From Oscillospiraceae bacterium (GTDB lineage: Bacteria; Bacillota; Clostridia; Oscillospirales; Oscillospiraceae): a DNA stretch of 60,955 nt. The stretch covers positions 1-60,955 of the forward strand of contig JAFQTF010000022.1 in the NCBI GenBank assembly GCA_017409205.1. The letters run 5' to 3'. Shown piece by piece: positions 41,482 through 56,383 of the stretch (the stretch's first letter is position 1; the number at the start of each line of letters is the position of its first letter). Both the position numbers and the translations under genes were made by a program. The notes below the pieces were generated by a model that searched no databases, was not told the DNA's origin, and was given only the letters and a program-made list of their open reading frames with translations.

Positions 41482-42672
41482 TTATTCGCCCAGCACCTGA
41501 GTCATCATCTGATCCACCAGGATCAGGCAACGCGGCACATGGAAGGGACCCTTGAAGGTGGAACCCTTGCAGGCAGGCTGGGTGGGCTGGCCATCACGAC
41601 GCAGGTAACCATACCATTCGCCGTACTCGTCAGCAAAGTACTTCTTGCAGTAGTCCAGGATCTGGTAGAAGATATCCAGATACTTTTCGTCCTTGGTATC
41701 GCGGTAGATCATCATGGAAGCGATCAGGGCCTCATTGTGGGGCCACCACAGCTTCATATCATGCTCGTAAGCTTCGGGAGGATTGCCCAGGCAGTCCATG
41801 AAGTACAGGATGCCGCCGAACTCATCGTCCCAGCCCTTGGAGAAGGCCATGTCGAAGACATTGATGGCCTTGGCATGGAGCTCCTTGTCGCCCATCTCGT
41901 TGGCATAGTCCATCAGGAACCAGCTGCACTCGATGTCATGGCCGGGGTTGACCATGCGGCCCTCGGTAACGTGCAGACGGGGGGTGCCGTCCAGAGCAAC
42001 GCTTTCCAGCGTGACGCCCAGCTCAGGCTTCACATGGTAGGCAAAGATATCATGGACACATTCCTTGGCGCGCTCATCGTACAGCTCCTTCATTTCGGGG
42101 TCAACACGCTTCATGACGCCGGTAACGTTCAGAATAATCATGGGAATACCCAGGGCGCGGCCGGTGCGGGTGGACTTGGGGCCCATGCCGGTGGGGTCTT
42201 CTATGCCATGGTTCAGGTTCCAGTACATATCATAGGCGCGGCGGGCACGGAGCAGATGTTCCCGTTCACCGGTGATGCCATAATACTCGGCATTGGCGAT
42301 GCAGTAGAAGGCCTCAGAGTAGCAGTAGCGGCGCTGACGCAGGGGGGTGCCGTCGGCTTCCACGGTAAAATACAGACGGCCATCGGCATCGTGGTTGACA
42401 CAGTGCTCTTCCAGGAAGTCGATGCAGCTCTTGGAGAACTTCAGCCAGTCCTCCCGGACGCCATAGATGTTGCACAGGTATGCGTAGGTCCAGCCGCAGC
42501 GGCCCTGCATCCAGACGCTCTTGTCAGTGGAATAGACCTGAGCAGTGCGGTCCAGACAGGTGGTAACACCGCCGTTGACGTGATCCCAGCCATTCTTCAG
42601 CCAGAAATCCGCAACATTGCTCAGCTGGTTGCGGATCCACTGGCGCTCAGCCAAAAACTTTTTGCGATCCAT
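41482..42672 (-). CDS. AGE-family N-acylglucosamine 2-epimerase
   Basis: 396 residues, an (alpha/alpha)6 barrel enzyme of the AGE/renin-binding family; these interconvert ManNAc and GlcNAc or epimerise other sugars. Family marks are QGRCGWTYAYL, RRYCYSEAFYCIANAEYY, NPGHDIECSWFL and KLWWPHNEALIA with the catalytic His residues. The neighbouring sialic acid lyase gene makes ManNAc the likely substrate, as for the AGE-type NanE of Bacteroides. Cellobiose 2-epimerase is a related alternative, less likely in this context. Confidence 0.85.
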   Translation of the reverse strand: MDRKKFLAERQWIRNQLSNVADFWLKNGWDHVNGGVTTCLDRTAQVYSTDKSVWMQGRCGWTYAYLCNIYGVREDWLKFSKSCIDFLEEHCVNHDADGRLYFTVEADGTPLRQRRYCYSEAFYCIANAEYYGITGEREHLLRARRAYDMYWNLNHGIEDPTGMGPKSTRTGRALGIPMIILNVTGVMKRVDPEMKELYDERAKECVHDIFAYHVKPELGVTLESVALDGTPRLHVTEGRMVNPGHDIECSWFLMDYANEMGDKELHAKAINVFDMAFSKGWDDEFGGILYFMDCLGNPPEAYEHDMKLWWPHNEALIASMMIYRDTKDEKYLDIFYQILDYCKKYFADEYGEWYGYLRRDGQPTQPACKGSTFKGPFHVPRCLILVDQMMTQVLGE

Positions 42673-42769: not shown

Positions 42770-43696
42770 TTACTGGATTCTTCTGACAATGTCCAGACCA
42801 ATTTCGTCTGCCTTGTCGATGGCAACCAGTTCATCAACCAGCTTCCGCTCCTCTTCCTCCGTAAAGTTGGAGAAGGGACGGCGGGAATATCCGGCAGGAA
42901 TTCCGGCGGCCCGGAGCCAGACCTTCATACAGGCCATCATGCTGCCGCTGCGGATGCCCGCAAAGATCACATGGACAGCCTGACGCTGGAGCCGGGTGGC
43001 TTCCGCAATATCAGAGCTCTTCACTGCAGCCCAGATCTTACCATACAGGTCCGGGATCACGTTGTAGAAGGAACCGATGACGCCGTCCACGCCCAGAGCA
43101 ATATTGGAACTGCCCAGTTCATCACAGCCGCCGTAGACCAGGAAGCCTGGCTTGCAGCCTTCCTTGATCTGCATAACTTCATACAAAGCCGTGCCGGTGT
43201 ATTTCACACCCTTGACGTTTTCGATCTCAGACAGGCGAATGATCTGATCCACAGTCATCATACCGGCCAGAGGAATGTTGTAAACGATCATGGGCAGGCT
43301 GGTGGCCTCGGCCACATCCTTGTAATAATGGAAGATCTGATCGGGGTTATACTTGAAGTAGAAAGGAGGTACGCTGGAAACACCGGCAGCACCGAGCTGC
43401 TCAGCGTGTTTTGCCAATCGGATGGCCTCCCGGGTAGACATGGCGCCCACGTGGACCACCACAGGAACCTTGTCACCCACTTCTTCCATGGTGATCTCCA
43501 CCTGACGCATCCGCTCTTCCGCGGTCATCAGCCAGGTTTCGCCGGTGGAACCGGTGACATACAGACCGCCGATGTCGTAAGTCAACAGATGGCGGATAAA
43601 TTCACGGGTACCCTGCTCGTCCAGATTCTCATCCTTATCGAATACAGACAGGACTGCAGGGATCACACCTTTGAAATCCAGAATATCTCTGCTCAT
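42770..43696 (-). CDS. nanA: N-acetylneuraminate lyase (DapA superfamily)
   Basis: Cleaves sialic acid to ManNAc and pyruvate. 308 residues, TIM barrel. The carboxylate-binding GSTGE is at 49-53, the catalytic Tyr139 in VYNIP and the Schiff-base Lys165 in GVKYTG. The position between an Opp-type transporter and an AGE epimerase supports this lyase over dihydrodipicolinate synthase or other DapA relatives, though a related aldolase remains possible. Confidence 0.87.
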   Translation of the reverse strand: MSRDILDFKGVIPAVLSVFDKDENLDEQGTREFIRHLLTYDIGGLYVTGSTGETWLMTAEERMRQVEITMEEVGDKVPVVVHVGAMSTREAIRLAKHAEQLGAAGVSSVPPFYFKYNPDQIFHYYKDVAEATSLPMIVYNIPLAGMMTVDQIIRLSEIENVKGVKYTGTALYEVMQIKEGCKPGFLVYGGCDELGSSNIALGVDGVIGSFYNVIPDLYGKIWAAVKSSDIAEATRLQRQAVHVIFAGIRSGSMMACMKVWLRAAGIPAGYSRRPFSNFTEEEERKLVDELVAIDKADEIGLDIVRRIQ

Positions 43697-43714: not shown

Positions 43715-44758
43715 TTATTCCTTCACCACGGGGTGGAGACCCTTGGCAGCCAGTTCTTCCTTCACCTTATGGCAGGAAACGAAGTGGCTGACGCCATCAA
43801 TGATATACTCTTCCAGCATGGGCCGCTCGGTCTTGCACTTGTCGCAGACCTCGGGGCAGCGGGGATGGAAGGTACAGCCGCTGGGAGGATTGGCGGGAGA
43901 GGGAACGTCGCCCTGCAGGGGGATGCGCTTCTTGGTCTGATTCACATCAGCAACAGGGATCGCGGACAGCAGAGCCTTGGTATAGGGATGCAGCGTATTG
44001 GCAAACAGTTCCTCAGAGGTGGTCAGCTCCACCACCCGGCCCAGATACATAACGGCGATACGGTCGGCCAGGTACTCAACCACAGACAGGTCATGGGTGA
44101 TGAAGATGTAGGTCAGCTGATATTCTTCCTTCAGCTGGTTCAGAAGCTTCAGAACCTGAGCCTGAATGGAGACGTCCAGCGCAGAAACCGCTTCGTCACA
44201 GATAATCAGTTCGGGGTTGACGGACAGGGCACGGGCAATACCGATTCTCTGACGCTGGCCGCCGGAGAACTCGTTGGGGTAACGGGTCATGTAGTCCCGG
44301 GGCAGGTTGACGGATTCCAGCAGGTCGCCGATCTTCTTGATACGGTCATCCTTATTCTTCATGCCGAACTTGATCAGGGGATCCTCCAGGGAGCCGAAGA
44401 TGGTGAAGGCAGGATTCAGAGAAGAGTAGGGATCCTGGAACACGATCTGGATCTTCTGACGGGCATTGTCGATCTCCTTGCGGGTCAGGGTTCTCAGATT
44501 CTTGTAGCCGTCCTCAAACTTGTATTCCATGGAGCCGTCGGTGATGGGCACCAGCTGCAGAATGGACTTACCCAGGGTGGTCTTGCCGCAGCCGGACTCA
44601 CCAACCAGGCCCAGAGTTTCACCCTTGTAGACATCCAGGCTGATATCGTCAACAGCCTTGACATAGCCCACAGTGCGCTTCATCAGACCCTTTTTGATGG
44701 GGAAGTAGGTTTTGGCGCCTCTGACTTTCAGAAGGACTTCTTTTTCCTTATTTTCCAT
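43715..44758 (-). CDS. Opp/Dpp-type ABC ATPase (OppF/DppF)
   Basis: 347 residues. Walker A GESGCGKTT, signature FSGGQRQRIGIARAL, Walker B LIICDEAVSALDVS. The C-terminal oligopeptide-transporter domain ends with an iron-sulfur-type cysteine cluster (CTFHPRCPEVCDKC). The start overlaps the end of the preceding ATPase gene by 11 bases. It serves the permeases and permuted binding protein upstream. Confidence 0.93.
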   Translation of the reverse strand: MENKEKEVLLKVRGAKTYFPIKKGLMKRTVGYVKAVDDISLDVYKGETLGLVGESGCGKTTLGKSILQLVPITDGSMEYKFEDGYKNLRTLTRKEIDNARQKIQIVFQDPYSSLNPAFTIFGSLEDPLIKFGMKNKDDRIKKIGDLLESVNLPRDYMTRYPNEFSGGQRQRIGIARALSVNPELIICDEAVSALDVSIQAQVLKLLNQLKEEYQLTYIFITHDLSVVEYLADRIAVMYLGRVVELTTSEELFANTLHPYTKALLSAIPVADVNQTKKRIPLQGDVPSPANPPSGCTFHPRCPEVCDKCKTERPMLEEYIIDGVSHFVSCHKVKEELAAKGLHPVVKE

Positions 44759-45773
44759 TTGCCGTTACCTCCTTATAGTTGAAGCAGCGCACGTAATGGC
44801 CCTCGGTGACCCATTCCTCGGGAGGCATCTCATTCTGGCAGCGCTCGCAGGCGTAATCGCAGCGGGGGCAGAACTGGCAGCCCTTGGGCCGCTTGAAGGG
44901 GTCGGGGGTAGAACCCCGGATGGGCTCCAGCTGCTGATTCTTGCCCTTGCCCAGAACGGGGATAGACCGCAGCAGGGCCTTGGTATAGGGATGGGAAGGA
45001 TTGGTGAAGATCTTCTCCACAGGACCGTATTCCACGATGTTGCCCATGTACATAACGGCAACCTCATCGGCCATTTCTGCCACGACGCCCATGTTGTGGG
45101 TAATCATCATGATGGCAGTGTCGTGTTCCTTCTTCAGGTTGTTCATCAGATCAAAGATCTGGGCGGAAATGGTAACGTCCAGCGCAGTGGTGGGCTCGTC
45201 AGCCAGCAGGATCTTGGGTTCGCAGGACATACCCATGGCGATCATGGAACGCTGACGCATACCGCCGGAGAACTGGTGAGGATATTCGCCGTAGCGGATG
45301 TCAGGCGCAGGGATGCCCATGTCGGCCAGGTCTTCGATGGCAGCTGCCTTGTACTCGGCCTTGGTCATGCCCTTCTTGTGCTCCTTCAGCATTTCCTCGA
45401 TCTGGGAGCCAACGGTATACACAGGATTCAGAGCGGTCATGGGATCCTGGAAGATGATGGCGATGTCTTCGCCACGGAGCTTACGCATCTGCTTGCCGTT
45501 CTTTTCCAGCTGATCCAGACGGATCTCCTGACCATCTTCCTTATAGTAGGTAATGGAGCCACTCTCGATGCGGCTCAGATCAGGCAGCAGCCGCAGAATG
45601 GAGTTGGCGGTAACAGACTTGCCGCAGCCGGACTCGCCGACCACGCACAGGGTTCTGCCCCGCTTGATGTCAAAGCTGACACCACGGATGACCTTGTTGC
45701 ATCTCTGGTTGGTATAGAAATAGACATGCAGGTCTTTTACGCTCAGAACAACATCATTATTTTTTTCAGCCAT
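44748..45773 (-). CDS. Opp/Dpp-type ABC ATPase (OppD/DppD)
   Basis: 341 residues. Walker A GESGCGKSV, signature FSGGMRQRSMIAMGM, Walker B LLADEPTTALDVT, and the C-terminal CQFCPRCDYACERC cluster. The ATG at 45771-45773 is preferred, with AAGAGGTGA just upstream; a GTG three codons earlier is possible. Sialic acid carriers of this family (SatABCD in Haemophilus ducreyi) also use two such ATPases. Confidence 0.93.
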   Translation of the reverse strand: MAEKNNDVVLSVKDLHVYFYTNQRCNKVIRGVSFDIKRGRTLCVVGESGCGKSVTANSILRLLPDLSRIESGSITYYKEDGQEIRLDQLEKNGKQMRKLRGEDIAIIFQDPMTALNPVYTVGSQIEEMLKEHKKGMTKAEYKAAAIEDLADMGIPAPDIRYGEYPHQFSGGMRQRSMIAMGMSCEPKILLADEPTTALDVTISAQIFDLMNNLKKEHDTAIMMITHNMGVVAEMADEVAVMYMGNIVEYGPVEKIFTNPSHPYTKALLRSIPVLGKGKNQQLEPIRGSTPDPFKRPKGCQFCPRCDYACERCQNEMPPEEWVTEGHYVRCFNYKEVTANGK

Positions 45774-45785
45774 GTCTCTCACCTC

Positions 45786-46724
45786 TTAACCAATCTGAGT
45801 GGGGTCGGATGCATCCCGGAGGCCGTCACCAATGAAGTTGATGGACAGAACAAACAGGATCAGCATAATGGCGCAGGGCAGCCACATCCACCAGTATTCC
45901 AGCCAGTCAAAACGGATGGTGCCACCGTTGGTGATAACATTAATAATGTTGCCCCAGGTTGCGATCTCCTGAGGAACGCCGTAACCCAGCACAGACAGGG
46001 ATGCTTCCTGCAGGATGAACATGGCGGTGGACAGCGTAATATTGACCACCACGGGACCCAGCGTATTGGGCAGCAGATGCTTGAAAGCGATCTTGGCATC
46101 GGAAATACCAAAGGCCCGGAGCGCCTGCACGAATTCCTGCTGCTTCAGGCTGAGCACCTTGGAACGGGTCATACGGTACATGCCCGGCCAGCCGGTGAGA
46201 ATAAAGATAATAATCAGATTTTCCATACTCTGACCAACCAGTGCCACGATGATGATAATCAGGACCATCTGGGGGATGGACTGGAAGATATCAGAGATCT
46301 TGATCAGCAGGCTGTCCACAATGCCACCCTTGTAGCCAACATACAGGCCCAGAGTAACACCCACCAGAGCGGCGCCCAGGGCGGAGCCCAGGCCGACAAT
46401 GATGGAGATCCGGCCACCGTAGAGGATACGGGTCCAGATATCACGGCCCATCTGGTCGGTACCCATGATATGTTCCGCACTGGGAGGAGCCATCTTGGCC
46501 CGCAGGTCAAACATCATGGGATCATACTTGCTAAACAGAGGTGCACCGAAGCACAGCACGCAGATCACAACGAACAGCAGCACGCCGATAACGGCCAGCT
46601 TGTTGGAGGTAAGTTTACGCAGAGTTCTGTTGGTCAGCTTGGTGCCCAACTTTCCGCTTTCTTCAGCCGCTCTGATCTTATCCAACTTTCGATCAAGCGC
46701 TGTTTTCTTCATCGTATTACTCAT
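45786..46724 (-). CDS. Opp/Dpp-type ABC permease (OppC/DppC)
   Basis: 312 residues with six hydrophobic segments. GTDQMGRDIWTRILYGGRIS and the EAA-like loop VQALRAFGISDAKIAFKHLLPN are standard OppC marks; the tail GDGLRDASDPTQIG is typical. The ATG at 46722-46724 overlaps the stop of the OppB gene (ATGA), so translation is coupled. Confidence 0.93.
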   Translation of the reverse strand: MSNTMKKTALDRKLDKIRAAEESGKLGTKLTNRTLRKLTSNKLAVIGVLLFVVICVLCFGAPLFSKYDPMMFDLRAKMAPPSAEHIMGTDQMGRDIWTRILYGGRISIIVGLGSALGAALVGVTLGLYVGYKGGIVDSLLIKISDIFQSIPQMVLIIIIVALVGQSMENLIIIFILTGWPGMYRMTRSKVLSLKQQEFVQALRAFGISDAKIAFKHLLPNTLGPVVVNITLSTAMFILQEASLSVLGYGVPQEIATWGNIINVITNGGTIRFDWLEYWWMWLPCAIMLILFVLSINFIGDGLRDASDPTQIG

Positions 46725-47671
46725 GACAACTTCACCCTCGGATCGAGTACTGCAGTCAGAATATCCACCAACAGGGAGGACAGCAGTACCATAAGCACCA
46801 TAAACAGGCCAACGGACATAATAATCGGGGTATTCTGGGTCTTGATGGCATCTGTGAACCACACGCCAACACCAGGCCACTGGAAGATATTCTCAATAAC
46901 AATAGCGCCGCTGATCAGTGTGGGCAGACGGAAGCCGATCAGAACCATGACGGGGGTGCAGGCCACACGGAATCCGTGGAACATATTGACCTTCCACTCC
47001 GCCAGGCCCTTGGCCCGCGCAGTCTTGACGTAGTCGCAGTTCATGGAATCCAGCATGGCAGAGCGGGAGTAACGCATAACACCGGCGGTCTGGGAAATGC
47101 CCAGGGCGAAAGCCGGCAGGAACAGGTGATGCAGCTCGCTGATGAGTCCGCCGTCACCTCTCTGACCTACAGGGAACCACTGCAGGTTCAGTGCAAACAG
47201 GATGATACAGAAAATACCGAACAGGAACTGGGGAATAGCAACGCCCACCATGCCGGCAACAGTCAGCACGTTATCGGCGATCTTGCCTTTCTTCAGTGCA
47301 GAAACGACACCCAGCAGAATACCCAGGAAAGAAGAGAGGATCAGAGATGCCAGAGACAGCTCGATGGTTGCGGGCAGCTTCTGCATCATCAGCGTTGCAA
47401 CAGGCATGTTGTTCTGGAGGGAATAGCCAAGGTCGCCCTTGCAGACACCCACCAGCCAGTTGAAATAGCGGACGATCATGGGGCCGTCCAGACCCTTTGC
47501 AGCGCGGAAGGCTGCAATCTCTTCCTCGGACATCTCGGCCAGCTGGTCCATGGGGATCAGGAAGTCGATAACATCACCGGGCATCATTTCGATACCTGCA
47601 TAGATCAGGAATGTGATGATCAGCAGCATCGGGATCATGCCCAGCAGTTTTCTAAGCGTAAAGTTTACCAT
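46721..47671 (-). CDS. Opp/Dpp-type ABC permease (OppB/DppB)
   Basis: 316 residues with six hydrophobic segments. The N-terminus LRKLLGMIPMLLIITFLIYA, the loop KTARAKGLAEWKVNMFHGFR and the ending DPRVKLS are family features. It is separated from the binding-protein gene by 160 bases that contain hairpins, a common arrangement that allows less permease than receptor. Confidence 0.93.
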   Translation of the reverse strand: MVNFTLRKLLGMIPMLLIITFLIYAGIEMMPGDVIDFLIPMDQLAEMSEEEIAAFRAAKGLDGPMIVRYFNWLVGVCKGDLGYSLQNNMPVATLMMQKLPATIELSLASLILSSFLGILLGVVSALKKGKIADNVLTVAGMVGVAIPQFLFGIFCIILFALNLQWFPVGQRGDGGLISELHHLFLPAFALGISQTAGVMRYSRSAMLDSMNCDYVKTARAKGLAEWKVNMFHGFRVACTPVMVLIGFRLPTLISGAIVIENIFQWPGVGVWFTDAIKTQNTPIIMSVGLFMVLMVLLSSLLVDILTAVLDPRVKLS

Positions 47672-47831: not shown

Positions 47832-49487
47832 TTACTTAGCGGGTCTCTCGAACATGTTGATGAAGATATAACGGGGGAAGGTGACGTTGACAGTCTCAAC
47901 GTTGTAGCCTTCCATAGCCTGCAGCTGCTGGACCTGTGCGGAGTCCTTGCAGAATGCGTAGTCGATGTTGCCAGCCTGAGCATTGGTGATCAGGTTGGTG
48001 TCGCCGGCGTCGGTGGAGGGATACATGTAGATCTTCTCAATGTTGCCGGTACCGGTCATGTAGTAGTCAGCATTCTTGACCAGAGTGGTGTACTCGCCCA
48101 GCTTAACGGTTTCGACCTTGAAGGGGCCGGTGCCGATGGGAGCCTGCCAGAAGGTGTCAGCAGCGAAGTTCTCGGGAGTAACGTTCTCCAGAGCATGCTT
48201 GGGCAGGACGGGCCACTGGGAGAAGACAGTCAGAGCATTGGGCTGGGGATTGTTGAAGGTGAAGACAACATTGTTGCCGTCGACCTCGATGGAAGCAGCA
48301 TCGTTGATGACATCGGTCATAACGGTGTTGGCGCCGGGAACGGTGGGATAGTATTCGAAGGTCCACTTGACATCTTCAGCGGTAAAGGGAGTGCCGTCGT
48401 GCCAGACAACGCCCTCACGGATGGTGAAGGTGATGGTCTTGCCGTCTTCGGAGACTTCGAAAGCCTCAGCCAGCTGGCCGTCGGTGGGAGTCAGGGAGGA
48501 ATCAGCATTCAGCAGACGCTCGAAGACCAGTTCCTGATGCCAGAACAGAGCGGGGTTGGTAGCGGGATGCTCCAGGAAGTTGACAGCACCGGTGTTGGTG
48601 TACAGGGTGTTGTCTTCACGGTCGATGGTCCAGTCCAGAATGTTCTTCTGGTAAGCGAACTGGTCATTGCCGGGAGCGTTGCCAGCCATATCCAGCTTGT
48701 CAGAGGTGACAACCCAGGAGGGGATGTAGAACAGGGGGATGACGGTTGCGTCAGCGTTTTCGTACTGCTGGATGGCATCGTAAGCAGCCTTCTGATCCTC
48801 TGCGGTAACAGCGACCTTTGCGGTGTCGATCAGAGCGTCCAGCTCGTCGTTCCACTTAACGGTGGAGTTGTTGGCAGCGGTGGAATGATGGCGGTTGTAG
48901 AACTCGCCCAGGGTCAGAGCGTTGGTACCGGCAAATGCGATGTCCCAGTCAACAGCGGAGGTGACGCCGTCAGGAGAGGGAGTCCACAGCAGAGCGGTCA
49001 GGTTGTCGGTCAGCAGCTGGAATTCCATGTTGACGCCGACCATCTGCCAGTAGCCCTGGATAGCGGTGATGGTGTCCAGCAGGTTAGCGGTGTAGTAAAC
49101 AGCCTGGATGGTGTAGGAGCCGTCCCAGCCTGCTTCGGCCAGCAGCTGCTTGGCCAGCTCGGGGTTGTAAGAGTACTCGGTCAGACCGTCAGCCTGCCAG
49201 GTGCCCTCGGGAACCAGGGACTTCTTGGCAGCAACAACGGTGTTGTCCCACAGGCCTTCTACGATGGCATCCATATCAATGGCATACCACAGAGCCTGAC
49301 GGACGCGGGGGTCCTGCAGGGGGTGTGCGTAGGTTACGCCCTCGTCAGCACTGGGTGCTGCGGGAGCTTCGGCTGCGGGAGCATCAGCAGCGGGAGCGTC
49401 GGCCTTGGGAGCTTCAGCGGTGCCACCACAGGCGACCAGGGTCAGAGCCATGGCCAGAACCAGCAGCAGAGAGATCAGCTTCTTCAT
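47832..49487 (-). CDS. Substrate-binding lipoprotein of SBP family 5 with circularly permuted order
   Basis: The receptor of the Opp-type transporter, 551 residues. The signal MKKLISLLLVLAMALTLVAC has its lipid Cys at 20; an Ala/Pro linker runs to about 50. Residues 55-290 hold the part that is C-terminal in every family 5 protein I know: DPRVRQALWYAID (59-71), YNPELAKQLLAEAGW (107-121), PLFYIPSW (251-258), ending NILDWTID. Residues 292-551 hold the normal N-terminal part: VFERLL (321), LAEAFEVSEDGKTITFTIRE (339-358), WHDGTPFTAEDV (362-373), IGTGPFK (451), NADYY (472), and end RYIFINMFERPAK, where DPRVRQAL should follow. The frame is unbroken. Context suggests sialic acid as ligand. Confidence 0.9.
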   Translation of the reverse strand: MKKLISLLLVLAMALTLVACGGTAEAPKADAPAADAPAAEAPAAPSADEGVTYAHPLQDPRVRQALWYAIDMDAIVEGLWDNTVVAAKKSLVPEGTWQADGLTEYSYNPELAKQLLAEAGWDGSYTIQAVYYTANLLDTITAIQGYWQMVGVNMEFQLLTDNLTALLWTPSPDGVTSAVDWDIAFAGTNALTLGEFYNRHHSTAANNSTVKWNDELDALIDTAKVAVTAEDQKAAYDAIQQYENADATVIPLFYIPSWVVTSDKLDMAGNAPGNDQFAYQKNILDWTIDREDNTLYTNTGAVNFLEHPATNPALFWHQELVFERLLNADSSLTPTDGQLAEAFEVSEDGKTITFTIREGVVWHDGTPFTAEDVKWTFEYYPTVPGANTVMTDVINDAASIEVDGNNVVFTFNNPQPNALTVFSQWPVLPKHALENVTPENFAADTFWQAPIGTGPFKVETVKLGEYTTLVKNADYYMTGTGNIEKIYMYPSTDAGDTNLITNAQAGNIDYAFCKDSAQVQQLQAMEGYNVETVNVTFPRYIFINMFERPAK

Positions 49488-49802: not shown

Positions 49803-50252
49803 ATGATCTACACAAAACGCAAGCACCTGCACCGTTATCTGGGCCAGAGTGCCGCTCTGGACACTGCCATCCGTTATCTGGATACCGCTGATCTGACCGC
49901 CCTGACCAAGGGCCGCAATGAGGTGGACGGCGACCAGGTATTCATCAACCGGTTCGACTACCAGACCATGCCTCAGGAGCAGGCCATTTGGGAGGGCCAT
50001 GTGCAGTACGCCGATATGCACGTTCTGCTGTCCGGCCACGAAAAGATCGGCGTCACCAATGTGGAAGCCCTCACCGAGACTGTTTTCAAACCGGATGAGG
50101 ATTTCAAGGGCTTTGACGGCCCCGTGGAAGTCTGGTTCCCCATGACCACCGAGGACATCCTCATCGTCTACCCCGAGGATATTCACATGGTCAAGGTCCT
50201 GGACGGCGACAGTGCACTGGTACAAAAGGCCTGTTTCAAGATCAAAGTATAA
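49803..50252 (+). CDS. YhcH/YjgK/YiaL-family protein (NanQ-like)
   Basis: 149 residues, a DUF386 cupin-type fold. GRNEVDGDQVFINRFDYQT, WEGHVQYADMHVLLSGHEKI and VYPEDIHMVKV are family landmarks with candidate metal ligands (His65, Asp70, His72, His127). E. coli YhcH (NanQ), encoded in a nan operon, speeds sialic acid anomer interconversion; relatives are also found with other sugars. The divergent position beside nanA supports a sialic acid role. GGAG precedes the ATG. Confidence 0.88.
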   Translation: MIYTKRKHLHRYLGQSAALDTAIRYLDTADLTALTKGRNEVDGDQVFINRFDYQTMPQEQAIWEGHVQYADMHVLLSGHEKIGVTNVEALTETVFKPDEDFKGFDGPVEVWFPMTTEDILIVYPEDIHMVKVLDGDSALVQKACFKIKV

Positions 50253-53368: not shown

Positions 53369-56257
53369 TCAGTTCTTTTCCGCTGCGGCTTTCTTGCGGG
53401 TCTTGCGCAGAATCATCATTTCCGCACCGATCAGGGCTGCTGCCAGGATCACATCCAGAGCATAAACAGCGATCTTCCAGCCGGGCATGCCGGCATTCTG
53501 GACAGCTTCTTCATACTCCCAGCTGTTCACCAGGGTATACATGATATTCTTGCAGCCGTTGCGCAGGTACTTGACGGTGCTTGCGCTGGGGTTCTCCCAG
53601 TCGTGGGGACGGTTGGGGCCTTCGCCGTAGGTAGCCAGCATGGCATCCATGCCGTTTGCCAGAGCGGCGTCAGCATTCATGAAGCCGTGGCCGTTGTTGC
53701 GGAAGAAGTCGGAGACCACGGTGCCGCGGAAGCCCCATTCATCACGCAGGACGGTATTCAGCAGCTGACCACATTCACCAGCCCAGGTGGTACCCAGGAA
53801 GCTCCAGGAAGCCATCACGCCGTCAGCGCCGAATTCCTTGACGCAGATCTCGAAGGGCTTCAGGTAGATCTCACGGATGGCCTGCTCATTGGACCAGATG
53901 CTGACCATCTTGTAGTTGCCGTCATACATGGCGAAGTGCTTGATGTAGGAATAAACGCCATGCTCCTCAGCACCGGCAACGGCGTTACCAGCCATACGGC
54001 CGGTGAGGACGGAATCCTCGGAGTAGTATTCGTAGTTACGGCCACCGAAGGGGTACCGGTGCATGTTGATGCCGGGGGCATACCAGCCGGCAACATCCAT
54101 CTCACGGGCCATCTCGCCCATAATGGAGCCATACTCGTGGGCCAGCTCCTGATTCCAGGTGCAGGCAATGACGGTGGCAACGGGGAAGCCGATGGAACCG
54201 GCGCCGGTGAAGTTATTGTTGATGGCGGCAGGGCCGTCGGCATCGTTGGCCTGAGCCTTGCCCACGGATTCCACACCGGGGGTCTGGTAGCCGCTGAGGG
54301 AGGTCATGTAGACCATGTCCGCTACACTCAGCTGATCCAGCAGCTGCTCCCAGCGGGGATCGTCATAGTCGGCGCCCCGCAGATCTGCCAGCACCAGACC
54401 ATTGTCCGCGCCGGTAGTGGGCATCACATCGCTGGGATCGATGTACATCTCATAGTCGAAGTTTGCGTTGAGCTGATAGGTGGGAATATACTTTTCAGCC
54501 ATATTCAGGCTGGCGGGTGCTGCGGTGGCCTCGGCAAAATTGGCAAACTTTCCGGTGCGGGACAGGTAGGTCACATCGCCGTGGACATCGCCGAACAGGT
54601 TGGTGGCAGCGGTGTCATCGGAAGTTCTGGCATTGTTTTCATCATAAACTACGGTCTTGTCCTGGGTATAGACAGTCTCGCCCACGATATCGTGGCTGTT
54701 GGTGCGGGCAGTGATGATGTACTCGCCCTGCTCCAGAACGTATGCCTCTTCCTTCAGGTAATCGTAGGAAGCCATATCCTCGATGGCGAAGGACAGCTCC
54801 AGCGTCTGGGAAGAGCCGGGTTCCAGAATGTCCGTCTTGCCGAACGCAATCAGATTTGCGGTGGCCTTTTCAATGCCGCCCTCGGTGTAGGGAGGATTGA
54901 AGTAGATACCCACAACATCCTTGCCGGCCATATCGCCGGTATTGGTGACGGTAACGGAAGCGGTCAGGCGTCCGTTGTTCTCGGTCAGTGCGCCCATCTC
55001 ATAGGAGAAGGTGGTGTAGCTCAGGCCGTGGCCGAAGGGATACTGCACAGTGGCATCATAGTCAAAGCCTTCCATGCCGATATCATGGGCAGTCTCATAG
55101 AACTTGTAACCCATGTAAACGCCGTCCACATAATGGACGAAGGAGGGGGAATAGGTCTGGGGCTTGCCTGCGTTCATGCCGTCAACGGTCATGTCCAGCA
55201 GGTTCTCGTAGTTGACCTTGGCAGCGTTGTTCCACCAGGGTGCCTTGGTCATGTCGTACAGGAAGGTATCAGAGGTACGGCCGGAGGGGTTGATCTCGCC
55301 GCGCAGGATCTTGCCCAGGGCATTGAAGCCCACGTTACCGGGGCCGGGGCACCAGATGGCAGCCTGGATCTGGGGATGTTCCTCCACAAAGCCCAGCTCA
55401 ATGGGGTTGGCGCCGTTGTACAGCACCAGGACCTTGTCGAAGTTGGCGCAAACCAGCTCCACCATGTTCTCTTCAGACTGGGACAGCTGCAGGTAGTGCT
55501 CGCCAGCCTCAAAGTCCAGATACTCGTCGGAGTTGTGGTCGAAAGCGACCTGGCTCACATCCATGGGCAGGTCGTTGTGGCCTTCACCTGCGGCGCGGGC
55601 CAGAACAATGACAGCCACATCGGAGAATGCCCGGGCATTTTCCAGAAGGGCATCGGAATATGCAGAAACAGGGGGTTCAGGCAGTGTCCAGCTCTGCTTT
55701 TCAATGGACATTTCAGGACGCTCGCCGGTATAGCCGGTGTAGAAGGCTTCCAGCTCTTCGTTCAGGGCAAAGCCTGCATTGATCAGGCCCTGCTTCATGG
55801 AAACAATGTCGAACAGGGCGTTGATGCCGCCGGAACCGGCACCGCCGTACAGGGGATTGACGGAAGCCCAGCCGAACAGGTTCAGTTTCTGGGTATCCTT
55901 CAGGGGCAGCAGGCCTTCATTTTCCAGCAGGACAAAGCCTTCTGCGGCCACCTGCTCGGCAACGGCAGCAGCCTTCTCGGTGGTATCGTCATCCACCTGT
56001 GCTTCGCCCATGGTCAGGCTGATCAGATTGGACATGGGGCCCAGGCAGATCAGATTGGCGACCAGCACGATGGCCAGCACCATAGCCAGAACAGCGTTCC
56101 AGCGGATCACGAACTTCTTTTCCTTGCTCAGCTTCTTGCTGACAGATGCCGCGACCAGCACAGCGATGCCGACAGCCAGGGCGATGAGCAGGGGGATCAG
56201 GTACTTCTGGCAGGTCTGCAGTACGCCGATCACGTCCTCCATGTTGATTTGTAACAT
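53369..56257 (-). CDS. Membrane-anchored glycoside hydrolase family 3 with swapped domain order
   Basis: 962 residues. Two membrane segments near the N-terminus (about 16-36 and 50-70), one near the C-terminus (about 928-952) and a basic cytosolic tail. Between them the order is: alpha/beta C-domain first (AAEGFVLLENEGLLPL), fibronectin-III-like domain (FGHGLSYTTFSYEM), then the catalytic barrel (AQANDADGPAAIN, RNYEYYSEDSVLTGRMAG, IKHFAMYDGN) with nucleophile Asp850 in TVVSDFF. With an even number of helices before it, the enzyme should face outside. Reverse-order GH3 enzymes are known, for example from Ruminococcus and Butyrivibrio. GGAGGAG precedes the ATG at 56255-56257. Confidence 0.88.
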   Translation of the reverse strand: MLQINMEDVIGVLQTCQKYLIPLLIALAVGIAVLVAASVSKKLSKEKKFVIRWNAVLAMVLAIVLVANLICLGPMSNLISLTMGEAQVDDDTTEKAAAVAEQVAAEGFVLLENEGLLPLKDTQKLNLFGWASVNPLYGGAGSGGINALFDIVSMKQGLINAGFALNEELEAFYTGYTGERPEMSIEKQSWTLPEPPVSAYSDALLENARAFSDVAVIVLARAAGEGHNDLPMDVSQVAFDHNSDEYLDFEAGEHYLQLSQSEENMVELVCANFDKVLVLYNGANPIELGFVEEHPQIQAAIWCPGPGNVGFNALGKILRGEINPSGRTSDTFLYDMTKAPWWNNAAKVNYENLLDMTVDGMNAGKPQTYSPSFVHYVDGVYMGYKFYETAHDIGMEGFDYDATVQYPFGHGLSYTTFSYEMGALTENNGRLTASVTVTNTGDMAGKDVVGIYFNPPYTEGGIEKATANLIAFGKTDILEPGSSQTLELSFAIEDMASYDYLKEEAYVLEQGEYIITARTNSHDIVGETVYTQDKTVVYDENNARTSDDTAATNLFGDVHGDVTYLSRTGKFANFAEATAAPASLNMAEKYIPTYQLNANFDYEMYIDPSDVMPTTGADNGLVLADLRGADYDDPRWEQLLDQLSVADMVYMTSLSGYQTPGVESVGKAQANDADGPAAINNNFTGAGSIGFPVATVIACTWNQELAHEYGSIMGEMAREMDVAGWYAPGINMHRYPFGGRNYEYYSEDSVLTGRMAGNAVAGAEEHGVYSYIKHFAMYDGNYKMVSIWSNEQAIREIYLKPFEICVKEFGADGVMASWSFLGTTWAGECGQLLNTVLRDEWGFRGTVVSDFFRNNGHGFMNADAALANGMDAMLATYGEGPNRPHDWENPSASTVKYLRNGCKNIMYTLVNSWEYEEAVQNAGMPGWKIAVYALDVILAAALIGAEMMILRKTRKKAAAEKN

Positions 56258-56315
56258 AGACTCTCCTCCTAATGATTTCTTATGCGTTCCGGGGCTTTCA
56301 CCCTTATGCACTGCC

Positions 56316-56343
56316 ATTTTATCACGGCAGGAAGCAATCCCAA
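56316..56343 (-). promoter_or_regulatory. Promoter of the GH3 operon
   Basis: On the - strand: TTGGGA (56338-56343), 16 bases, TAAAAT (56316-56321), about 58 bases before the start codon. The weak -35 fits an activated promoter. Confidence 0.6.
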
Positions 56344-56354
56344 AGCAGCAGCGC

Positions 56355-56383
56355 ACAAACTGTCATTTTCCCGCACAAACGGT
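56355..56383 (-). promoter_or_regulatory. LytTR-type direct repeat upstream of the GH3 promoter
   Basis: On the - strand ACCGTTTGT (56375-56383) and ACAGTTTGT (56355-56363) both fit the LytTR consensus [TA][AC][CA]GTTN[AG][TG]. They have a 20-base period (11-base spacer) and end 11 bases upstream of the -35. The LytTR regulator gene lies just upstream in the same direction. Confidence 0.65.

Follow-up and report, generated by a model that had tools for sequence, protein, structure and literature searches.

The protein encoded at 47832-49487 (-) of the window, by which we mean the whole 60,955-nucleotide stretch analyzed here, is in all probability a working natural circular permutant: a family-5 substrate-binding protein (SBP) and lipoprotein of a Dpp-type importer of the sialic-acid type, the same loop having been opened independently in a second, OppA-type family. 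The exchange of its halves is real. Natural permutation of an SBP is already known in the class of Tp0684, and the family-5 case is new in the open-licence literature, where Tp0684 is the sole example found and belongs to another SBP class. The first-pass annotation, which knew of no natural permutation described in this family, was thus correct within that literature, and the accessible part of PMC2588589 likewise describes none.

Tp0684 (TpMglB-2) of Treponema pallidum is a naturally permuted, glucose-binding ABC SBP lipoprotein that changes shape on binding (PMC4990184). As far as the accessible part of that report goes, the topology also occurs in other treponemes and in Gram-positive bacteria, many of them from the gut, and anchoring was raised as a possible cause of the permutation. 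Tp0684 and the window SBP are both natural permutations of ABC SBP lipoproteins; however, from what could be consulted of Tp0684, it has a cluster B (MglB) fold with a cut N-lobe sheet and a fourth hinge crossing, and its permuted part is hard to spot by sequence, whereas the window SBP belongs to PF00496 and its permutation is plain. The window protein also falls outside the MglB-2 group (Type Ic / cluster Bc), given its PF00496 and peptide/nickel-type matches and the absence of any MglB model among the matches listed.

Two families in one genus have their new termini at the same place, and normal-order relatives that are up to 80% identical occur in other species of that genus. Natural circular permutations are mostly known as single old events. 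Because close relatives of both orders exist, and because both orders can occur in one organism, the steps and effects of this change in topology are directly testable side by side, with folding, ligand closure, anchoring, and docking all open to such a comparison. Profile searches score the permuted proteins strongly, yet the swap goes unflagged.

Order of the halves and position of the cut

The window gene is an uninterrupted frame of 551 codons on the minus strand, identified as a permuted family-5 SBP by profile and PDB matches and by a half-order test. Its product begins with a signal peptide (49431..49487) and the lipobox LVAC, whose Cys20 directly follows the signal peptide, a lipoprotein anchor recognized by pattern; then comes an Ala/Pro-rich linker (residues 21-54; 49326..49427). 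Next comes the usual C-terminal part, now in front (residues 55-289; 48621..49325), which was delimited by NCBIfam, PDB, and half-profile matches. Sequence comparison places the joined old C and N termini at residues 287-296 (48600..48629). The usual N-terminal part, now at the back (residues 292-546; 47850..48614), was recognized by Pfam as well as by the three former sources. The protein ends in FINMFERPAK, and the segment comprising ERPAK and the stop (47832..47849) corresponds, by sequence comparison, to a continuous loop in normal-order relatives. The first-pass annotation had described a lipoprotein signal and an Ala/Pro linker ahead of two swapped halves, with junctions at about 48615 and 49325, and the alignments place leader, halves, and junctions just so.

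Three collections of references agree on the inversion. PF00496 matches the protein with 219 bits, against a gathering score of 32.4, but in two stretches, the better of which pairs query 337-545 with profile 4-208; in a six-frame search, the halves fall at profile positions 4-209 and 210-345. Among NCBIfam models, query 55-255 aligns with OppA positions 308-511 and query 320-540 with Opp4A positions 65-292. More generally, in NCBIfam and in the best 60 of 94 matched PDB sequences alike, DppA/OppA-type proteins align with the first half through positions of about 250-530 and with the second through about 10-310. DppA and OppA have the normal linear order and peptide ligands; both of their halves match the window SBP, and only the order differs. 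The canonical linear order of SBP family 5 is therefore inverted in the window protein, which we class as a permuted variant of PF00496.

Rotating the sequence restores collinearity with the family. The two PF00496 stretches merge into one (95-448 = 4-345), and the score rises from 219 to 232 bits. Similarly, two stretches on PDB 5isu become one (89.7 to 97.8 bits), and 6hlx and 5u4o are each matched in a single long stretch, while for some chains the gain is slight (4oet, 94.8 to 95.0). Homologous halves are exchanged, the old termini are joined, and the new termini lie inside a formerly continuous loop, so the circular permutation proposed at first reading is upheld.

The new start corresponds to position 308 of the OppA model and to position 274 of the DppA chain. 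If the domain limits of OppA and DppA are as we take them to be, the cut falls some 11-13 residues inside lobe 2 (domain III), and it probably sits beyond the lobe-crossing strand instead of in the hinge itself. The earlier placement of the cut in the hinge or lobe-crossing region is refined to that extent. In peptide SBPs, domain I contains both termini and lobe 2 is formed by domain III, according to the AliD limits in the consulted part of PMC11192437. The permuted protein would be expected to retain the two-lobed Venus-flytrap fold, with the chain still crossing between lobes twice; its N-terminal tether would now join the fold at lobe 2 (domain III) and no longer at lobe 1, and docking on the permeases might otherwise be as before.

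Relatives in both orders and the number of order changes

Homologs in both orders, which the first-pass annotation had suggested seeking with the two halves separately, are plentiful. A half-profile order test, applied to 50 distinct ORFs in which each half matched at E<=1e-5, yielded 18 permuted ORFs (one truncated and one frame-broken) and 32 normal ones, a ratio that is no survey, because the loci were fetched with the window family as the query. Nine close relatives (L054, L058-L060, L070, and L073-L076) have the N-half before the C-half, unlike the permuted SBP, while occupying the same place ahead of dppBCDF; in the comparisons listed, which set four of these nine against six permuted copies, each half shows 34-53% identity. 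At the junctions, the normal form has a continuous loop, YTRLLYVNKFNKKDGTKSPLSDVRVRQAL, where the permuted form has the two ends YTRCFYINQFPHEANIK-stop and GTPLADVRVRQAL. Conversely, the C terminus, NWNIQNWTLK-stop, and the N terminus, TNIMYSNGGP, of the normal form are joined in the permuted counterpart as KNILDWTISRDDHTMYTNGGP. [Clostridium] citroniae carries a permuted copy (L035) and a normal copy (L070) on separate contigs of the same genome.

The window's own genome (G000) contains five PF00496 ORFs, of which two are normal and three are permuted: the window gene and two of the OppA type. The latter lie on contig C61 (L096:1750-3600, +; 617 codons between stops) and contig C60 (L097:1000-2868, -; 623 codons between stops). 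The junction of the PF00496 halves falls at profile positions 209/210 for the window gene, and the OppA-type ORFs have it at 212/198 and 212/210. The C61 copy runs from a leader through EIRNALAMLIDR on to GYKYF, then into the usual N terminus SISVCLSSEPDTIDPALN, and ends at NMNEPLLP; its ends map to chain positions 279 and 288 of the solved OppA 1b05. The best PDB relative of the OppA-type permuted SBP is OppA 8are (209 bits). The OppA-type and window SBPs are both PF00496 proteins whose permuted members are cut in the same loop, but they form separate branches.

A three-segment test of 47 distinct OppA-type ORFs identified 27 as permuted at the same loop (C1-C2-N, some partial), 19 as normal (some from other genera), and one, L136, as cut elsewhere. 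OppA-type matches in either order occur in at least 39 of 119 genomes and in at least 50 of 136 genomes of the genus. Within those 136, C2 directly precedes N in at least 34 ORFs from at least 32 genomes (permuted; some seen in part), and close normal copies amount to at least 11 ORFs in at least 11 other genomes. The two genome sets share no member, as is expected of orthologues. Permuted and normal copies are 39-80% identical per half (printed pairs, five permuted against four close normal copies). Moreover, where the permuted copies are cut, the close normal ones carry a long loop rich in Ala/Glu (e.g., ILPAGSTLTGAEAEAAKAEIR), which is short in several outgroups.

L136:1636-3525 (+) has the order C2-N-C1, that is, a leader, the tail of the usual C terminus, the N-half, and the rest of the C-half. 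It is a gene from a single MAG and ends about 50 bases short of the contig end. Among the best few candidates per genome from the other genomes of the 136, none matched it over its full length, and no short tail of this kind was seen in 31 other PF00496 loci as judged from how much sequence precedes and follows the match, with odd lengths in L165, L169, and L179.

In a joint tree, a single clade of all permuted copies from both families was rejected (AU p=2.4e-6). This rejects descent of both families from one permuted ancestor, and the same loop must have been opened at least twice. Trees and sequence together thus point to two or more independent events at one loop, with L136 as a further event elsewhere.

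How often the order changed within each family is less settled. For the sialic-acid type, a single branch sets all permuted copies apart in trees of either half and of both halves together (32 sequences, with two partial permuted copies excluded), with support of 97.5/96 for the N-half, 93.2/96 for the C-half, and 96.8/96 for both. A DppBCDF tree built from the window, 14 permuted loci, nine normal loci, and the outgroup L040 (excluding permuted L023, L031, and L039) gave the permuted clade 100/100, while the normal set was weakly supported (46/69). AU tests of the SBPs rejected a grouping of the Oscillospiraceae type with normal copies (p=0.003) but left the corresponding Lachnospiraceae-type grouping standing (p=0.073), and the reduced joint SBP tree recovers the latter (84/87). 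A single event in this family, which is backed by the DppBCDF tree and opposed by the reduced SBP tree, is accordingly not firm.

For the OppA type, the best tree requires four order changes with 31 sequences and five with 43, where L136 counts as its own state and one change, and at least four changes occur in 999 of 1,000 bootstrap trees. In the 43-sequence tree, the normal copy L126 is sister to six permuted ones (98.4/97). Nevertheless, a single permuted clade survives the AU test (p=0.165 with 43 sequences and p=0.070 with 31), and the deep branches are weak. We therefore give somewhat less than even credence to the order having changed more than once within a family, whether the permutation recurred, was reversed, or spread through gene conversion involving copies of either order: the L126 placement, the change counts, and the Lachnospiraceae-type grouping speak for it, while the DppBCDF clade and the OppA-type AU results speak against it.

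As for the route, a normal-order SBP heading an SBP-dppBCDF-nanA operon would have acquired its new termini in the loop that precedes the DxRVRQAL helix, presumably by duplication followed by partial loss. Independent opening in two families makes this loop look like a favored, tolerated place for new termini. The leader of the window SBP resembles those of other genes in its genome, where it is common to many genes; for instance, 16 of the 18 non-self matches of the window gene begin within it, among them L003 and L006, which belong to the two OppA-type permuted ORFs. In many copies, the leader's linker is Ala/Glu-rich, like the loop, so recombination between leader and loop is possible and, in duplicated genes, might be a source of the permutation. 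A broader proposal is more tentative still: that the family-5 SBPs of this genus have been permuted repeatedly, independently at one loop in two families and elsewhere in L136, with order switching between orthologues of neighboring species, leader/loop recombination as a potential driver, and a lobe-2 tether that is tolerated or favored.

No intermediate of the permutation was found. A further SBP copy or remnant next to the permuted gene was considered and rejected, since comparison of the loci with the window operon proteins revealed none, save the two frames of the broken L039. Of the 18 permuted copies of the sialic-acid type, 11 (L022 included) have a lipobox recognized by pattern, as do all nine normal relatives; the seven permuted copies that lack one are L027-L031, L036, and L037. 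The tether reading thus does not fit all copies, and anchoring is disfavored as a general cause.

The operon and its likely ligand

The window SBP heads genes for two permeases and two ATPases, all on the minus strand: DppB/OppB type (46721..47671), DppC/OppC type (45786..46727, with the start codon set by eye; searched as 45786-46733), DppD type (44748..45782), and DppF type (43715..44758). All were assigned by profile match, as was the next gene (42770..43696, -), a DHDPS-family member whose best model is N-acetylneuraminate lyase (256 bits; cut-off, 281). It is followed by an N-acylglucosamine 2-epimerase (AGE) family gene (41482..42672, -), which is over the Pfam cut-off and below the NCBIfam equivalog. 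A divergent YhcH/YjgK/YiaL family gene (49803..50252, +) passes the subfamily cut-off and falls below the sialic acid anomerase equivalog. The sialic-acid-type operon of the first-pass annotation is therefore present, and linked sialic acid catabolic genes accompany it, with several of them below equivalog cut-offs.

This arrangement recurs. dppBCDF follows the SBP gene in 15 of the 16 permuted loci L024-L039 (L031 stops at the contig end) and in nine of nine normal-order loci. A NanA-like gene occurs in the window and in 14 of those 16 permuted loci; in normal loci, it lies directly after dppF in four of nine, with weaker matches in three more. The NanE model is over its cut-off in all four candidates submitted (L032, permuted; L056, L089, and L090, normal), as is the nagB model in L088 (normal). 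The nagA model narrowly misses its cut-off in L036 (permuted), and L056 has a NanK-like kinase that also scores below cut-off.

The ligand is most likely sialic acid or a close derivative, given these nan/nag-type neighbors, a reading that agrees with the presence of SatA structures (5z99, 5yyb, and 5za4) among the PDB relatives of the window SBP. SatA of Haemophilus ducreyi SatABCD (PDB 5z99) is a peptide-SBP-like sialic acid binder of an ABC importer, according to the accessible parts of two reviews (PMC11364026 and PMC10017367), and resembles the window SBP in this respect. It differs in its normal order, its distant sequence, and its gene set, SatA to SatD as opposed to an SBP with four Dpp-type genes. 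In these gut bacteria, the sialic acid would probably come from host mucus. A working permuted SBP for another ligand, either a different sugar acid or a peptide, is unlikely but deserves weight: the nearest models are peptide and nickel SBPs, and the window lyase is under the NanA cut-offs. Against this stand the genes for NanE, NagA, NagB, AGE, and YhcH that neighbor one or the other form of the SBP, along with the SatA structures. That the permuted protein has become a sensor or scavenger and lost its transport role is far less probable; although seven of the 18 permuted copies lack a lipobox pattern, the permuted gene heads dppBCDF wherever the fetched stretch extends far enough, and it is under purifying selection.

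Two further observations concern the neighborhood. Loci of both orders repeatedly have a fumarate-reductase-like flavoprotein gene alongside the operon (L056:13926-15542, L034:4077-5882, and L035:4172-5959; the profile scan covered the L056 copy). Adjoining the operon, the segment 36522-41225 (-) of the window encodes a family 1 SBP, two permease-like ORFs, and a GH123-type protein.

Spread, selection, and integrity of the permuted genes

Most genome searches scored a handful of top candidates from each genome (between 3 and 14 where a limit is stated), and counts of matching genomes are hence lower bounds. Among 99 genomes of relatives, the window's own included, at least four carry a permuted SBP at E<=1e-40; one copy is frame-broken, and the remaining two, both intact, share 93% and 82% identity with the window protein over their length. 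A collection scan returned 31 loci, of which 17 (L023-L039; three repeat loci from the former search) are permuted and the other 14 were normal or unresolved in that test. Other searches matched at least two of 391 genomes (own and one normal order), at least one of 148 (normal order), at least four of 96 (all normal order), at least two of 398 (a separate search; own and one normal order), and at least 10 of 299 (both orders in one genome, normal order in the other nine). A PF00496 search of 60 relatives found the split, swapped pattern in at least nine ORFs from at least seven genomes. The permuted copies are labeled Oscillospiraceae/Faecousia, Lachnospiraceae, Erysipelotrichaceae, Spirochaetia, Chloroflexi, and other Clostridia; they come mostly from MAGs, whose labels may be wrong, and two named strains have one, [Clostridium] citroniae WAL-17108 and Porcincola intestinalis.

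The permuted sialic-acid-type SBP is under purifying selection. dN/dS was 0.036-0.204 in six of seven pairs (with dS >1 in two of those), the seventh pair being saturated, and both halves gave 0.13-0.17 in the pairs that include the window gene.

That two different SBP genes each contributed a half by fusion, as opposed to permutation of one gene, is highly improbable. Identities of the two halves to one normal relative may differ (34% and 44% for L001 versus L054), but the tree of either half splits permuted from normal copies identically, and OppA-type halves are equally near normal copies (80% and 79% for L107 versus L128). An assembly chimera or binning error was rejected, and its likelihood is negligible: the window assembly is fragmented and 76.6% complete, but independent assemblies and the two named strains have the same order, making an artefact very unlikely, the junctions are conserved among permuted copies, and the OppA-type family is cut at the same loop.

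Some individual genes merit mention. L022:1480-3194, which is the same as L039, is a permuted relative of about 44% identity from one MAG with a frame broken mid-gene, reflecting either a sequencing error or a decaying gene. At L030:12426-13499, a NanA-like gene lies in two frames, also in one MAG. Finally, the window encodes a 995-aa GH3 protein at 53369-56356 (-) in which GH3_C (142-447) and an Fn3-like domain (481-553) stand ahead of GH3_N (723-907); reversed GH3 proteins are known.
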